64,000 nt of DNA from Actinomycetota bacterium (GTDB lineage: Bacteria; Actinomycetota; Acidimicrobiia; IMCC26256; PALSA-610). The position numbers and the translations under genes are program-made. The DNA lies in contig SXHN01000122.1 in the NCBI GenBank assembly GCA_005773635.1, forward strand, positions 62,001 through 126,000, in the 5' to 3' direction. Under the pieces are notes generated by a model. The model was not told the DNA's origin. It made no database searches and saw only the letters and a list, made by a program, of their open reading frames with translations. Below, one piece after another: positions 20,710 through 60,141 of this stretch (within the stretch, counting starts at the first letter, position 1; the number at the start of each line of letters is the position of its first letter).

Positions 20710-21702
20710 TCACCTCATGCCGCGAGCGGCTTTGTCTTCTTCGATGAGGTCGGATTCATACATGCGACGAACAAGTTCTTCGAAGCTGACTTTCGGTTCC
20801 CAGCCCAGTTTCGCTTTGGCTTTGCTCGGGTCGCCGATGAGCAAATCCACCTCGGCGGGGCGATCAAAGCGCACATCGTGCGATACATAGGGTTCCCAAG
20901 AGTCGTACCCGGCACACCGAAACGCCACATCCAAAAATTCACGGATTGAATGCGTTTCGCCGGTGGCTACGACATAATCATCCGGTTCGTCTTGTTGCAA
21001 CATTGCCCACATCGCTTCGACGTAGTCAGCGGCATGGCCCCAGTCTCGTTGTGATTCGAGGTTGCCCAAACTGATCGTGTCTTGCAGACCTAGTTTGATG
21101 CGAGCCAACGACGACGTGATTTTTCGAGTAACAAATTCGTGCCCGCGCCGTTCGCTTTCGTGATTGAACAGGATTCCGCTACTCGCGTGAATTCCGTAGG
21201 CTTCGCGATAATTCACGGTGATGTTGTGACCAAACATTTTCGCAACGCCATACGGCGACCGAGGATGAAACGGCGTGGTTTCGGATTGTGGAACCTCGCG
21301 CACTTTCCCAAACATCTCTGACGAACTCGCTTGATAGAAACGCATCGGATTGTTTTCCATACCACCCACGATGCGCACCGCGTCGAGCATCCGCAGCACA
21401 CCAAGACCTGTAATTTCGGCGGTGAGTTCCGGTTGGCGAAACGACAACTGCACAAAACTGATCGCGCCGAGGTTGTAGACCTCATCGGGCTGCACTTGTT
21501 CCAGCACTGCAATCAACGACGCCATATCGCGAAGGTCGCCGTCGACGAGTTCGAGTCGTGGATTCTCGTCTTGCACCATGCGAGCTTTGGGGTTTGCCTG
21601 ACCCCGAATCATGCCGAATACCTGGTAGCCCTTGGCCGCCAGTGATTCCGATAGATAGCGACCATCCTGGCCAGTGATTCCGGTGATCAGTGCACGTTTC
21701 AT
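20710..21702 (-). CDS. gmd: GDP-mannose 4,6-dehydratase
   Basis: [48 protein letters not shown]. Confidence 0.9.
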
Positions 21703-53840: not shown

Positions 53841-54026
53841 CGGCCCAGTATCGCATGGATGGCCCTGCTGTGAGAACAGGACTCGACCGGGAAGAGCGGC
53901 CGGCCCATCAGAATGCGTCGCGACGCGCTGCCCCCGGCGTCGGCTGCGGCACACCTCGAACGATACGGCCCCTGCCTCCCGCAGCGCACTGACGAGTCGG
54001 CGAGCCTGCGCGCCGGTGGCGAGCCC

Positions 54027-54101
54027 GACACCAGAGGAGACACAACTCGAACCCCACGTTGAACTGGGCAAACGTTGTCGAAACGACAACACGAGTGCAA
54101 G
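54027..54101. repeat. ~75-nt repeat copy A with GTTGTCGAAACGACAAC palindrome
   Basis: 57 of 75 positions match copy B by hand alignment without gaps. Confidence 0.7.
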
Positions 54102-54490
54102 TAATGGGACGGTACTCCAACCCAAACATCGTGACGCGTCTAAAGCGCGTTCTCTCCGGTCAGGGCCAAGATCGGGTGTCCCATCGACCCGTCCCATCGC
54201 TACCGACAAATCGGACAAGAATCGACGCCGAAGCCGGGGAGACATTGCATGCGCTCGCGAATCGCCTCGGAATCGAGCGTGGACTTATCGCGGACCTGTT
54301 GCGCGAGCGCGGCGTCGCGGTGAAGTGCCGCCTCGTCGACGCCGTTGACATCGAGGCGGCGACGGACCTGTATACCTCGGGACTATCCCTGGCGAAGGTC
54401 GGCGAGCACTTCGGTGTGAGCGCCTGGAGCGTGTTGAGAGCGTTCCGGTCGAGTGGCGTGCCAACGCGGAAGCCGCGCCGGAGTCCTTGA
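54059..54490 (+). CDS. small recombinase-type helix-turn-helix protein (start uncertain)
   Basis: ATDLYTSGLSLAKVGEHFGVSAWSVLRAFRSSGVPTRKPRRSP. Confidence 0.65.
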   Translation: MNWANVVETTTRVQVMGRYSNPNIVTRLKRVLSGQGQDRVSHRPVPSLPTNRTRIDAEAGETLHALANRLGIERGLIADLLRERGVAVKCRLVDAVDIEAATDLYTSGLSLAKVGEHFGVSAWSVLRAFRSSGVPTRKPRRSP

Positions 54491-54703
54491 CGCTCGGCAC
54501 GTAATTCGCAACCGCCGGTCGAAGCGCGATCCCTGCTGTGAGCCCACGGACGGAGCGGGCGAATCGACGGGACGCAACGAATCGGCGCGTTCGACACGAC
54601 ACCGACCTCACGCACGCTCCCATGGGAACGCGAATCGACGGAGAGAAGCGCGATCGGTCTACCGAGCGAGCTCTGTGGAGTCCGGCTTCAGGATCTCTAT
54701 CGC

Positions 54704-54731
54704 TTGACACTACATCGTGAAGTGATATAGT
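54704..54731 (+). promoter_or_regulatory. sigma70-like promoter of the PadR gene
   Basis: TTGACA-N16-TATAGT; GTG start codon 7 nt after the -10. Confidence 0.7.
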
Positions 54732-54737
54732 AAGCGA

Positions 54738-55088
54738 GTGGTTCATATCGATCCGATGTCCTTCCTTCCGTTGCCGCAGGCACAGTTCCATGTCCTCGTG
54801 GCGCTCACCGACGGCGATCGTCACGGGTACGCGATCATGCAAGCCGTCGAGGAGTCCTCAAGCGGCGTCGTGCGCATGGGGCCGGCCACGCTCTACGGCA
54901 CGCTCAAGCGGCTTGTCGATCAGGGCTTCGCTGAAGAACTCGCCCGCCAGCCCGACGCGAGCGACGATTCGCGCCGTCGCTACTACCGGCTCACCGGACT
55001 CGGCCAGCGCGTGTGCGTCGCCGAGGCCGACCGTCTGGCCAGCCTGGTGCGGATCGCCCGCGCCAACCTGCGACCAGGTCTGGCCTGA
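54738..55088 (+). CDS. PadR-family transcriptional regulator
   Basis: FHVLVALTDGDRHGYAIMQAVEE; GPATLYGTLKRLVDQGFAEE; RRRYYRLTGLGQ. Confidence 0.92.
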   Translation: MVHIDPMSFLPLPQAQFHVLVALTDGDRHGYAIMQAVEESSSGVVRMGPATLYGTLKRLVDQGFAEELARQPDASDDSRRRYYRLTGLGQRVCVAEADRLASLVRIARANLRPGLA

Positions 55089-55089
55089 C

Positions 55090-55677
55090 ATGGCCTCGCC
55101 GCACCGCGTCTATCGGACGCTGATTCACCTCTATCCACCGGAGTTCCGCCGGCAGTACGGCCAGGACCTCGTACGGCACTTCGACGACCTCATCTCCGAT
55201 CGAGGCGTCCGCGCGGCGTGGGCTCGCACCGGCCTCGACCTGACCATCACCGTCCCCCGCTACCAGTTGGAGCGCATCATGACCCAAAAGCAGAGCAACA
55301 CCGCCCTTCACGCCACCGTCGCTCTACTAACCCTCGGCGGGGTCGCCACGCTGACGATGGACAACCGGATCGGTATCGTGCTCCTCGTCGCCGGTCTTGT
55401 GCTTGGCCTGACTCAACGTAGTGCACTCGCCACGTCGTTTCGCGTCCCGGATTCCTCCCTCCGTCGCAAGCGACTTCGCACCGCGGCTGTCCTCGGCGCC
55501 GTCTTCGCTTTGTCCCTTGGCACCTTCGAGCTGACCGTCGGTGACTCGTGGACCATCACCGACACGCTCCTCGCGCTCGTCGGCGTACCGGCAATGATTG
55601 CAGCCCCACTGTTCCTCCTCGCCGGTCTGCTCACCCCGCGACGACCGCGCGACAAGGATCTCGTCCGAGCCGGATGA
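55090..55677 (+). CDS. membrane protein with permease-prefix-like N-terminus, PadR partner
   Basis: YRTLIHLYPPEFRRQYGQDLVRHFDDL followed by TM helices. Confidence 0.7.
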   Translation: MASPHRVYRTLIHLYPPEFRRQYGQDLVRHFDDLISDRGVRAAWARTGLDLTITVPRYQLERIMTQKQSNTALHATVALLTLGGVATLTMDNRIGIVLLVAGLVLGLTQRSALATSFRVPDSSLRRKRLRTAAVLGAVFALSLGTFELTVGDSWTITDTLLALVGVPAMIAAPLFLLAGLLTPRRPRDKDLVRAG

Positions 55678-55762
55678 TCCTCCCGGTTCTCGCCCGGTGC
55701 TCGACCGCCCGGTTCAGAAGCCCGCAACCCGTCGACGAAGGTCGCCACACAAGGAGAACGCC

Positions 55763-56527
55763 ATGCTTACGAACCGGATGCCTGCACGAGCCGCAGCGCT
55801 CGCTGTCGTACTGGTGCTCGCCGCAGCCTGCGGCGACGACGACAACAGCGCGCGTGTCGCCTTCAGTGGTCCTGCCGACCGGGCTGCCATCGCTGGAGGA
55901 GTCGACGCGACGATGACCGCCGAAGGAATCGCAATCGAGGAGGCAGGTGAGGTTCGTGACGGCGCCGGCCACTTCCACATCGTCACCGACGCCGAGTGCG
56001 TCCGGCCGGGTGCAGTGATCGCTCGCGATGCCGATCACCTCCACTTCGGCGGCGGGCAGTCCGAGGGCACCATCTACCTCACTCCCGGCACCCACAAGCT
56101 GTGCTTGCAGGTCGGCGACGGTGCCCACGTGGCCCTCGACGCCACCGACACCGACACCATCACCGTAAATGTCGGGATCAACGACCGCGACGACTGGTGC
56201 GCCGTCGTCGGCGAGGTCGACGAACTAATCACCGCCACCGATAACAGCAGCGAAAAAGAGTTCGCGGTCAAGCAGGTCGGCTACGAGAACACCGGGCGCC
56301 TCCTCGCACAACTCAAGGGTGGGATCGACCAGGTCGACGCCTCAGCACGCCAGGCGGTCACGGCGAACCTCGACCGGGCCACCAGTATCACTGAAGCCTG
56401 GGTCACCGCCACCGACGCGCAGGATGTCGAACGACGGCTCGAGCCGATCTTCGCAGCCAGCGAAGGTGAAAGCGGAGCCGCTGCTCCGTGGATCCTCAAG
56501 AACTGCGGAGTCGAAATCGATAGTTGA
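55763..56527 (+). CDS. lipoprotein with DUF4399-like domain
   Basis: AAGGAG SD, lipobox LAAACG; GHFHIVTD...HLHFGGGQSEGTIYLTPGTHKLCLQVGDGAHVAL. Confidence 0.75.
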   Translation: MLTNRMPARAAALAVVLVLAAACGDDDNSARVAFSGPADRAAIAGGVDATMTAEGIAIEEAGEVRDGAGHFHIVTDAECVRPGAVIARDADHLHFGGGQSEGTIYLTPGTHKLCLQVGDGAHVALDATDTDTITVNVGINDRDDWCAVVGEVDELITATDNSSEKEFAVKQVGYENTGRLLAQLKGGIDQVDASARQAVTANLDRATSITEAWVTATDAQDVERRLEPIFAASEGESGAAAPWILKNCGVEIDS

Positions 56528-56611
56528 CCACCAGGCGGATGACGAGGAGCGCTGACAATCAGATCGACGCCGACTGACCCGTCTGCGAGTCGCGCACGAG
56601 CGAGTCGCGTC

Positions 56612-57589
56612 GTGTTCAGCGCGCTCGTGATGACGGCGGCGATGCGCGGCGCGGCCCGCGCCGCGTGGCGGCGAGCGCGTCGTGGTCCGACGCTGCCGTC
56701 GTGGCCGTGGAGCGAGGAACTGTTCGTCGGGGCGTTTCGTGGCGCGCTGTACGCGGGCGTCCGCGAGCTCGAACTGATGTCTCCGCGGCCCAAACGCCGC
56801 CACGCCACCAAGACGGTCCGACGCGGTTCGCTGGTCGTCGAAGATGTCCTGCTCGACGGCGTTGCCGCGACGCGATTCACGCCGCAAGGCCAGCTGGCCG
56901 GCACGATTCTGTACCTCCACGGCGGGGGCTTCATCACTGGCAGCGTCGCGACCGAGCGGCGACCGGCCTCGGACCAGGCTCTGAGCACCCGATGCGAGAC
57001 GTACAGCATCGAGTACCGGCTCGCGCCGAGACATCCGTTCCCGGCCGCGCTCGACGACTCGACGGACGCGTACCGCGCGCTGCTCGCGGAGGGGGCCGAC
57101 CCGAACACGACGATCTTCTTCGGCGGTTCGGCCGGGGCGTGTCTCGCGCTCGCGACATTGCTCCGAGCGCGAGACATGGGGCTGCCGATGCCCGCCGGTG
57201 CGGTGTTGCTGTGGCCCTACGTCGATTTCACGTTCTCGGGCGCGAGCATCAAAGCGAACGCCGAGATCGACATGCTCCCGTTACGCGATCTGGCATCGGT
57301 GTTGGGGAGCGCGTACGTGGGCGATGCCGACCCGACCGATCCGCTCTTGTCACCCATCTTCGCCGATCTCACTGGGCTGCCGCCGCTGCTGATCATCGCA
57401 GGCGGCGCCGAGTCGCTGCTCTCATGCGCAGAGCGACTTGCCGACAACGCCCGATCTGTTGGCGTCGAGACGCAATTCACCGTCTACCCGGAACAGATCC
57501 ACGGCTGGATGATCCTCCCGAAGCTCCCCGCGACGATCGCTGCCACGAATGAGATACAGGCCTGGATGACCCGTCGAGTCGGCCAGTAG
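56612..57589 (+). CDS. alpha/beta hydrolase (HSL-like)
   Basis: ILYLHGGGFITGS; FFGGSAGACLA. Confidence 0.88.
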   Translation: MFSALVMTAAMRGAARAAWRRARRGPTLPSWPWSEELFVGAFRGALYAGVRELELMSPRPKRRHATKTVRRGSLVVEDVLLDGVAATRFTPQGQLAGTILYLHGGGFITGSVATERRPASDQALSTRCETYSIEYRLAPRHPFPAALDDSTDAYRALLAEGADPNTTIFFGGSAGACLALATLLRARDMGLPMPAGAVLLWPYVDFTFSGASIKANAEIDMLPLRDLASVLGSAYVGDADPTDPLLSPIFADLTGLPPLLIIAGGAESLLSCAERLADNARSVGVETQFTVYPEQIHGWMILPKLPATIAATNEIQAWMTRRVGQ

Positions 57590-57611
57590 CCCGGCGTTCC
57601 GATCAGTTAGA

Positions 57612-58103
57612 ATGCAATTCGTGGTACTGCGAACGACGACGATCGAACGGACGACGGCGATCGCGAGTCCGCCGGAGATGGTGTTCGCGGTGGTGAACTC
57701 ACCGGAGACGGCGGCGAAGATCGATCCTGCGGTGCGCATGTGGTCTCCGGACCGACGGCCGATCGGCGTGGGCACGCGGTTTTCGATTCGTGGTCGGCTG
57801 GGAAGACTGCCGATTCGCGGTACGAGTGAGGTGGTCGTCTGGGATCCGTCGACTCGTTCCGAGTTCCGCAGCGTCGCTCCGAGTTACCCGTTCCGAGTGT
57901 CGGCACAGCATCGCTTCGACGCCCGGCCAGACGGTGGCACGGATTACACGTGGACCGTCTCCTTTCACGAAGTCAGTGTCATCGCTCGCCCATTCGTGGT
58001 CGTCGCCGCTCGGCGTTTTCGGCGAGCGCTTGATGCTCAGGCCGTAGCGCTCGTCGCGTATCTGCGCGGCGTTCAGCCGGGTGCCCCACCCCCTGAGCTT
58101 TGA
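57612..58103 (+). CDS. SRPBCC family protein
   Basis: RTTAIASPPEMVFAVVNSPETAAKIDPAV; alternating beta pattern. Confidence 0.7.
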   Translation: MQFVVLRTTTIERTTAIASPPEMVFAVVNSPETAAKIDPAVRMWSPDRRPIGVGTRFSIRGRLGRLPIRGTSEVVVWDPSTRSEFRSVAPSYPFRVSAQHRFDARPDGGTDYTWTVSFHEVSVIARPFVVVAARRFRRALDAQAVALVAYLRGVQPGAPPPEL

Positions 58104-58161
58104 ATTGGGAAACGCGCGACGCCGCAAACCGTCGTGAACAGCGGATCACCATCGGCAGCAA

Positions 58162-58236
58162 GACACCAGCGGCGGGGCAACTCGAACCCGTGTCTGACCT
58201 CGGAGAAGGTTGTCGAAACGACAACGGGAGTGCGAG
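58162..58236. repeat. ~75-nt repeat copy B, abutting the tRNA-Leu 3' end
   Basis: contains GTTGTCGAAACGACAAC at 58209-58225; ungapped alignment with copy A. Confidence 0.7.
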
Positions 58237-58314
58237 CGGGGGGACTTGAACCCCCACGTCCTTTCGGACACTGGGACCTAAACCCAGCGCGTCTGCCAAT
58301 TCCGCCACGCTCGC
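58231..58314 (-). tRNA. tRNA-Leu(UAG), no encoded CCA
   Basis: reverse complement GCGAGCGTGGCGGAATTGGCAGACGCGCTGGGTTTAGGTCCCAG...GGGGGTTCAAGTCCCCCCGCTCGCA. Confidence 0.93.
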
Positions 58315-58832: not shown

Positions 58833-58935
58833 CCCAGCAGCATGCCCGCGGCGTGGGCCACCGACACCGTCACCACCTTGCGTAGTAGCACGCACACTTT
58901 GAGTGATCGTCGCAGTCGTCCGGCAGGATGGTCAC

Positions 58936-60141
58936 ATGTCGGGAGGCATTTCTCTGAGCGAACTTCGGACGGTGAGCGAATCACTGCAATCGTTCGTGCA
59001 CGAGTTCGACGCGCACGTGTGCGACGGTGCGCTGGCGAAGCGGTTCGTGGAGGAGTTCGCTCGGCTTCGTCGCTTGGCCGACGCGGGCGCAACCTTGGCG
59101 CTGGCGCGCGTCGACGACACCGCCGCCTGGGCACATGGTGGCGACGGGGCGCGCACGACGGCCGAGTGGTTCGCTCGCAAGGCAGGGCTCCCGCTCGGCG
59201 AGGCGATCCGCGTTTCCGACACTGCGCAGAAGGTCGCGGAGCTTCCCTGCACCGAGGCCGCGTTGCGCGCCGGGTCGATCTCGACCGCGCAGGCGCATCA
59301 AATCGCCGACGCAGCAAGCGAGGATCCCGCGGCCGAGACGGAGCTGCTTGCTCTTGCGCCGACCGCATCGTTTCGTCAGCTGCGCGACCGGGCGAGACAA
59401 CGCAAAGCCGCCGCACAGGATGAAACCGCCCGCGTGGCGCGCCAACGTGCGCTGCGTGGCGCCCGTCGTTGGACCGACGACGACGGGATGCGCAACTACG
59501 CCGTCACGTTGACACCCGAACAAGCCGCGAGAATCGAACCGACATGGGATCGCTTCGCGAATCTCGAGTTTGCGAACGCGCGGCGCGACGGTCGACGTGA
59601 GTCAGCCGAGGCATACGCCGCGGATGCGCTCGTTGCGATGATCGAAGCCGCGCGCGACGGTCGCGTCGGCGGTACGGGAGCGACCGGCTCATTGCACGGC
59701 CTGGTGCTCGTCGACGCGACGGCGCTGCGACGCGGACAAACCGCCGTCGGCGAGACGTGCGAAGTCGCCGGGATCGGCCCCATCGACGTGACGGCGGCGA
59801 AACAACTGCTCGGCGACGCGGTCGTCGACATTCTCGTTCGAGACGGCGTCGATGTCCGGACAGTTGCGCACGCTGGTCGCTCCGCAAACCGCCGACAGAA
59901 GGCCGCGCTGTTGGCGGAGTGGGAATGCGAAGTCCGTGGCTGCGGCGTGCAGCGCGGCCTCGAAGTCGATCACATCGAGACATGGGCCGAAACGAACCGC
60001 ACTGCGATCGAGCACCTCGGCCCCAAGTGCAAGTGGCATCACCACCTGAAGACCAACAAGGGCTGGCACGACGGCGCCCGCGGCGACGACGGCAAGCGCG
60101 ACCTCCTTCCCCCGACTGGTGGCGCCGGACCAGGGCCGTGA
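58936..60141 (+). CDS. DUF222 / HNH endonuclease domain protein
   Basis: C-terminal CEVRGCGVQRGLEVDHIETWAETNRTAIEHLGPKCKWHHHLK. Confidence 0.85.
   Translation: MSGGISLSELRTVSESLQSFVHEFDAHVCDGALAKRFVEEFARLRRLADAGATLALARVDDTAAWAHGGDGARTTAEWFARKAGLPLGEAIRVSDTAQKVAELPCTEAALRAGSISTAQAHQIADAASEDPAAETELLALAPTASFRQLRDRARQRKAAAQDETARVARQRALRGARRWTDDDGMRNYAVTLTPEQAARIEPTWDRFANLEFANARRDGRRESAEAYAADALVAMIEAARDGRVGGTGATGSLHGLVLVDATALRRGQTAVGETCEVAGIGPIDVTAAKQLLGDAVVDILVRDGVDVRTVAHAGRSANRRQKAALLAEWECEVRGCGVQRGLEVDHIETWAETNRTAIEHLGPKCKWHHHLKTNKGWHDGARGDDGKRDLLPPTGGAGPGP

Follow-up and report, generated by a model that had tools for sequence, protein, structure and literature searches.

Att-like sites recurring at tRNA and tmRNA 3' ends bracket a probable recombinase-less cassette beside tRNA-Leu in an Acidimicrobiia contig

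Cis-mobilisable elements (CIMEs), as reviewed for ICESt1-type islands (PMC5704250), are bounded by attachment (att) sites, have no integration or transfer genes and stack at one target gene by tandem accretion. Islander-type islands at tRNA and transfer-messenger RNA (tmRNA) genes (PMC4383910) keep an intact RNA gene on one side and a displaced 3' fragment on the other. The Dehalococcoides ssrA islands (PMC3146451) lie in tandem at the tmRNA 3' end marked by direct repeats, and 15 of 31 have no integration module and are discussed as possibly cis-mobilisable. Here we analyse a window of 64,000 nt from an Actinomycetota bacterium of the class Acidimicrobiia (assembly GCA_005773635.1, contig SXHN01000122.1, positions 62,001 to 126,000), in which an imperfect repeat brackets a 4.1-kb segment. 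Copy A of the repeat lies at the start of a small helix-turn-helix (HTH) gene and copy B at a tRNA-Leu gene. On our best reading, both repeats belong to a family of recombination sites found at tRNA and tmRNA 3' ends in a poorly studied group of Actinobacteria. With a probability of roughly 0.6, the region at 54.06–58.23 kb is a CIME-like cassette that lies between att-like sites, lacks a recombinase, has decayed and is stacked at the 3' end of tRNA-Leu.

An ungapped alignment of the two 75-nt copies, at 54027-54101 and 58162-58236, has 57 identities; the best other ungapped match to copy A in the window reaches 37, with 36 on the minus strand and 38 in the reversed window. The pair lengthens to 89 nt with 65 identities (Table 1), and both copies hold the palindrome GTTGTCGAAACGACAAC exactly, with arms GTTGTCG and CGACAAC around AAA. 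All this bears out the original prediction, made from the window's letters alone. It had also placed copy B at the tRNA-Leu 3' end, which the position of the tRNA gene on the minus strand confirms with an overlap of a few bases, and copy A at the start of a small HTH open reading frame (ORF). That ORF is real and, judged by its relatives, begins within copy A at GTG 54095 and not at ATG 54104. A scan of the window with Rfam returned tRNAs only. The host genome holds just these two 75-nt copies at BLAST sensitivity. This is what a plain segmental duplication would leave, with the tRNA-Leu flank duplicated at a distance of 4.1 kb, or one of two tRNA-Leu genes since lost, and no recombination system involved. 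Such a history is highly improbable, as homologous sites with the same internal order occur in many other genomes and the strong homology ends at the tail rather than at random.

The sites of this wider family share a TGACCnGG arm, the palindrome, a spacer of about 4 nt and then a tail, beginning GTGGAG, that is either the antisense 3' end of a tRNA or tmRNA gene or a diverged version of such an end. A profile of 15 sites aligned from arm to tail, run over 1.63 Mb of DNA with reversed DNA as the control, gave 29 distinct matches above 12 bits (15 of them the training sites) and none in the control; the weakest few of the new matches are palindromes without the remaining site parts. The exact palindrome occurs at three places in the host genome: in both window copies and, at a distance of 4 nt from the tmRNA 3' end, on contig C85. 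A fourth, degenerate site adjoins tRNA-Ala(CGC) on contig C25. An abundance of copies away from tRNA or HTH genes, which the original prediction took as refuting the att model, was not found: the two further copies in the host are at tmRNA and tRNA-Ala. Within the class, a search that allowed up to one mismatch listed 31 palindromes in 21 of 396 genomes; a backwards version of the pattern, used as the control, gave 7. Several of the 31 sites adjoin tRNA-Val, tRNA-Ser, tRNA-Ala, tmRNA or displaced tails, and other listed palindromes sit within genes, apparently by chance. No tRNA or tail context accompanies the exact palindromes of viral contigs or of organisms outside Actinomycetota, and none of the 10 viral loci has arm and tail. 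The accessible parts of the open-access literature yielded no description of the family. The window also holds a one-mismatch palindrome, GTTGGCGAAACGACAAC, at 21432-21448 without arm or tail, probably by chance.

Intact RNA genes flanked by sites include tRNA-Leu, tRNA-Ala, tRNA-Ser, tRNA-Val and tmRNA, and the palindrome keeps a constant distance of 2–5 nt from the RNA 3' end. Such spacing would suit a non-mobile motif in the 3' flank of some tRNA and tmRNA genes, serving processing or termination and duplicated along with tRNA fragments. We consider this quite improbable, given that the host genome has the motif at only 2 of 34 inspected tRNA genes plus the tmRNA gene, that there is neither a U-run nor covariation, that homology breaks at the motif, and that the arrays hold unrelated cargo. 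The original prediction had raised two alternatives, an att-flanked element in decay and a dispersed family whose core is a conserved hairpin. On the evidence they merge, because the att-like site is itself the dispersed family, and the hairpin core finds no support. Among 15 palindrome variants no pair is altered on both sides, and this absence of compensatory change speaks against a conserved RNA hairpin. The palindrome therefore looks like, and on its pattern of variation probably is, a binding site for a protein.

Displaced tails argue further for att-like sites. They include a tmRNA tail in locus L110 and in genome G014, and a 46-nt tRNA-Ala tail in sister genome G001 (L198). In five of eight loci, the displaced tail matches the RNA gene at that locus more closely than any other tail tested. 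A displaced tRNA-gene fragment in the correct orientation and on the correct side, as in Islander-type islands, is clear in L198, L110 and L154 and weak in the window. The window segment has two homologous att-like sites of the family, the left one with a decayed tail, which may correspond to the attL and attR of a CIME. In genome G020 (L066, 7325-7453), no more than ~36 bp separate the intact tRNA-Ala(CGC) from a site that has a 13-nt copy of the tail; this could be a cassette that is minimal or has suffered a deletion.

Small cassettes without a recombinase of their own appear to be stacked serially at these RNA 3' ends. Genome G010, of the same family as the host, has sites at tmRNA, tRNA-Ala(GGC), a tRNA-like 3' end, an HTH start and a short ORF, and its contig C95 mirrors the window layout at 0.9 kb with a site, an HTH remnant, a GNAT acetyltransferase gene, a second site and tRNA-Ala. 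Four sites spaced ~1.1–1.6 kb apart lie on contig C143 of G012, with a PIN-domain toxin-like gene in one cassette, and in G014 two sites with tmRNA tails and a PIN-domain cassette precede the intact tmRNA gene. The tRNA-Ala(CGC) locus on contig C1 of G001 opens with a site whose tail is 14 nt long, together with a short ORF; 7.5 kb on comes the site with the 46-nt tail, then an ordinary tyrosine-integrase element and the intact tRNA gene. Cassette sizes range from ~0.5 to 7.5 kb, and cargo includes toxin-antitoxin and acetyltransferase genes. A cyclase-ATPase gene considered as a constant neighbour of the sites found no support in a motif scan. The best single indication of a recombination junction comes from one genome pair. 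G012 C143 and G010 C122 share 83% identity over 204 nt, starting at the palindrome, with no homology immediately to its left and a gene further left that is common to both. Since the homology starts exactly at the palindrome, that site marks the junction in the sequence comparison.

The HTH gene is the second constant of the family. The coding sequence of relatives opens within the tail mimic, at a GTG, and reads V-[ED]-[LV]-x-G-R-Y-S-N-P; several sites bear only a short ORF of 22–29 codons that starts likewise. Two HTH units are present in the protein, relatives of which match HTH_7, HTH_23 and HTH_38 in Pfam, and the solved chain 2lvs matches the C-terminal HTH (2.5e-8). In the window protein, ~10 residues of the first HTH are lost compared with relatives. 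A likeness to serine-recombinase C-termini, suggested by the original prediction, survives at the domain level in the HTH_7 matches of relatives; among the matches listed for the HTH ORFs there are HTH-type models only, with no catalytic or Resolvase domain. The nearest curated model is Cbp1 (NF040595), matched by all six HTH proteins scanned. They share its tandem HTH architecture but fall well short of the family cut-off of 140 bits, the window protein scoring 18, and there is no CRISPR array here. An inverted GGTCA lies at +63 in 7 of 10 HTH genes examined, against a background of 0.036 per 120 nt; conservation of the protein sequence could account for it. A phage origin of the protein found no support, with no relatives in phage records or viral contigs and one partial plasmid match.

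The palindrome sits ~4 nt ahead of the GTG of HTH genes or short ORFs, and tandem-HTH proteins resemble the CRISPR-repeat-binding Cbp1 family. The repeat might thus be the operator or promoter of the HTH family, its palindrome bound by the HTH protein, and lone palindromes at tRNA genes relics of lost HTH genes. This is unlikely: the palindrome is missing at the intact HTH genes of G003, G023, G118, G103 and G443, HTH-less sites beside tRNA or tmRNA genes are at least equally common, and the TGACC arm and the match of the tail to the local RNA would go unexplained. Under the cassette reading, the HTH protein may bind the palindrome.

Table 1. Features of the bracketed segment and its flanks, in window coordinates
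Feature	Position	Strand	Basis or remark
Copy A, left att-like site	54022..54110	+	65/89 vs copy B
Arm motif TGAACTGGGCAAAC (family consensus yTGACCnGGnnaAn)	54060..54073	+	Position left of palindrome constant in most family members
Palindrome GTTGTCGAAACGACAAC, copy A	54074..54090	.	Exact match; pattern census and profile
Tail mimic, diverged antisense tRNA 3' end and HTH gene start (V-Q-V-M-G-R-Y-S-N-P)	54095..54121	+	Family comparison
Small double-HTH protein gene	54095..54490	+	Alignments, Pfam on relatives
GGTCAG, inverted arm motif within HTH coding region, +63 from GTG	54158..54163	+	
Cargo: PadR-family regulator	54738..55088	+	Pfam PF03551, E 1.9e-17
Cargo: putative membrane protein, directly 3' of PadR	55090..55677	+	ORF alone
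Cargo: putative lipoprotein, DUF4399	55763..56527	+	Pfam PF14347, E 6.6e-23
Cargo: alpha/beta hydrolase (Abhydrolase_3)	56612..57589	+	Pfam PF07859, E 3.7e-52
Cargo: polyketide-cyclase/dehydrase-like protein	57612..58103	+	Pfam PF10604, E 7.9e-15
Copy B, right att-like site	58157..58245	+	65/89 vs copy A
Palindrome GTTGTCGAAACGACAAC, copy B, 4 nt off tRNA 3' end	58209..58225	.	
tRNA-Leu(TAG), intact, proposed accretion target	58230..58314	-	ARAGORN, Rfam

We propose a model in which the site consists of the TGACC arm, the 17-nt palindrome, about 4 nt and the antisense copy of a tRNA or tmRNA 3' end. In a circular form, the right and left ends of a cassette would be joined in the order arm, palindrome, tail, HTH gene. 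Recombination between the tail and the intact tRNA 3' end would then insert the cassette and restore the tRNA, leaving palindrome and tRNA at one end and flank, tail and HTH gene at the other. Where, as in the window, the HTH gene is preceded by a palindrome, an older cassette would accordingly have been in place already, the mark of tandem accretion. No palindrome precedes the intact HTH genes in G003, G002 and G023, which is what insertion into a locus free of older cassettes would give.

By ORFs and Pfam, the window cassette encodes HTH, PadR, DUF4399, hydrolase and cyclase proteins only, with no integration or transfer genes, and a recombinase would have to act in trans, perhaps a tyrosine integrase that targets tRNA genes. 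A family of such integrases is present in 162 of the 396 class genomes beside many different tRNAs (tRNA-Ala, Arg, Glu, Lys, Met, Val, Ser, Thr and others in L270-L299). Motifs like CTCTGACCTG often lie 13–17 nt from the tRNA 3' end beside these integrases, and TGACC is found ~13–17 nt from the tail in 11 of 29 tRNA rows near class integrases. The motif common to integrase loci and the site family is a lead pointing to shared arm-type sites, and no proof of them. Another candidate is the large serine recombinase (Resolvase, Recombinase and zinc-ribbon domains; L064, 11387-12847) on G012 C143, the contig of the four-site array.

Several observations weigh against the cassette reading. No recombinase is found in the window cassette or beside the HTH genes examined, and neither a circular form nor a precise empty site was seen. 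The window tail of copy A fits tRNA-Leu no better than several other tRNAs, and the N-terminal codons of the HTH gene could be kept as protein rather than as att DNA. No tRNA lies close to the HTH genes of G118, G103, G443 and G003 in the DNA examined; for HTH loci without a tRNA, no matching right ends were found. In several loci (L110, L062, L154) it is the distal tail, rather than the intact RNA gene, that carries the palindrome, and these cases require a second type of element.

The genomic setting of the window locus raises a separate question. Guanine-cytosine (GC) content climbs near 50.5 kb, from ~0.58 to 0.67, and remains elevated as far as the end of the contig. Of the two tRNA-Leu(TAG) genes in the bin, the one on contig C108 is syntenic with sister genome G001. 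The window tRNA-Leu and the adjacent HNH-type gene (58903-60141; no Pfam match at E 0.05) are instead syntenic with contig C37 of the high-GC genome G010. Taken together, these features make the right end of the contig either a large island or an assembly join. That the last ~15 kb was joined from another organism, leaving a real repeat pair that belongs to a high-GC relative, is suggested by the same three features. We regard it as improbable, because sites of the family also lie on the typical-GC contig C85 of the bin and in sister G001, and a genuine island would give the same picture. The evidence for the site family is independent of this question. The comparison with related genomes proposed with the original prediction does not count against mobility, the G010 locus that shares tRNA-Leu and HNH having neither cassette nor repeats. 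In G001, contig C82 (L033, 9465-13845) has an island at tRNA-Leu(TAG) with a 54-nt exact tail repeat and an apparent tyrosine-integrase C-terminus; without the palindrome, it is a different, ordinary tRNA island.

What is new relative to CIMEs and the Dehalococcoides islands is one palindrome spread over many tRNA and tmRNA targets, the small size of the cassettes, and an HTH gene or a 22–29 codon ORF that starts inside the site. The Dehalococcoides islands have a serine recombinase (DsiB) and one target (PMC3146451), whereas several targets and no such module are found here. Compared with the Islander type, the cassettes contain no integrase and many fall below the 2 kb limit applied to that type (PMC4383910). 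Integron cassettes resemble them in other respects, being small, arrayed and recombinase-less, with a recurring palindromic site and toxin-antitoxin cargo. The integron attC core reads GTTRRRY / RYYYAAC. The palindrome arms do not fit the GTTRRRY core, the target here is the tRNA or tmRNA 3' end, and no integron integrase was seen, though no search aimed at one was made. A broader possibility, tentative and on balance rather unlikely, is a cassette-capture system of integron-like layout. In it one trans-acting recombinase, together with the HTH protein, would recognise palindrome and arm and insert cassettes that lack a recombinase, and that often carry defence or toxin-antitoxin genes, at many different tRNA and tmRNA 3' ends in Acidimicrobiia and beyond.

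HTH relatives also stand directly beside known defence genes. In G103 (L194, 866-5898) the neighbours are a cyclase and a two-transmembrane (2TM) effector of a cyclic-oligonucleotide-based antiphage signalling system (CBASS), with a type I restriction endonuclease; in G118 (L192, 5478-9567) they are PD-Lambda-5 A and B, and in G003 (L142, 5300-9439) an OLD-like ATPase and a PD-DExK protein. The HTH gene may therefore help to find defence cargo in this under-studied class. The site provides a searchable signature for small integrase-less cassettes, which are thrown out by a standard island finder, since such a tool demands an integrase and sets a lower limit on length. The occurrence of one palindrome across many tRNA targets also poses the question of whether a single recombinase of loose choice serves them all, or many related ones.

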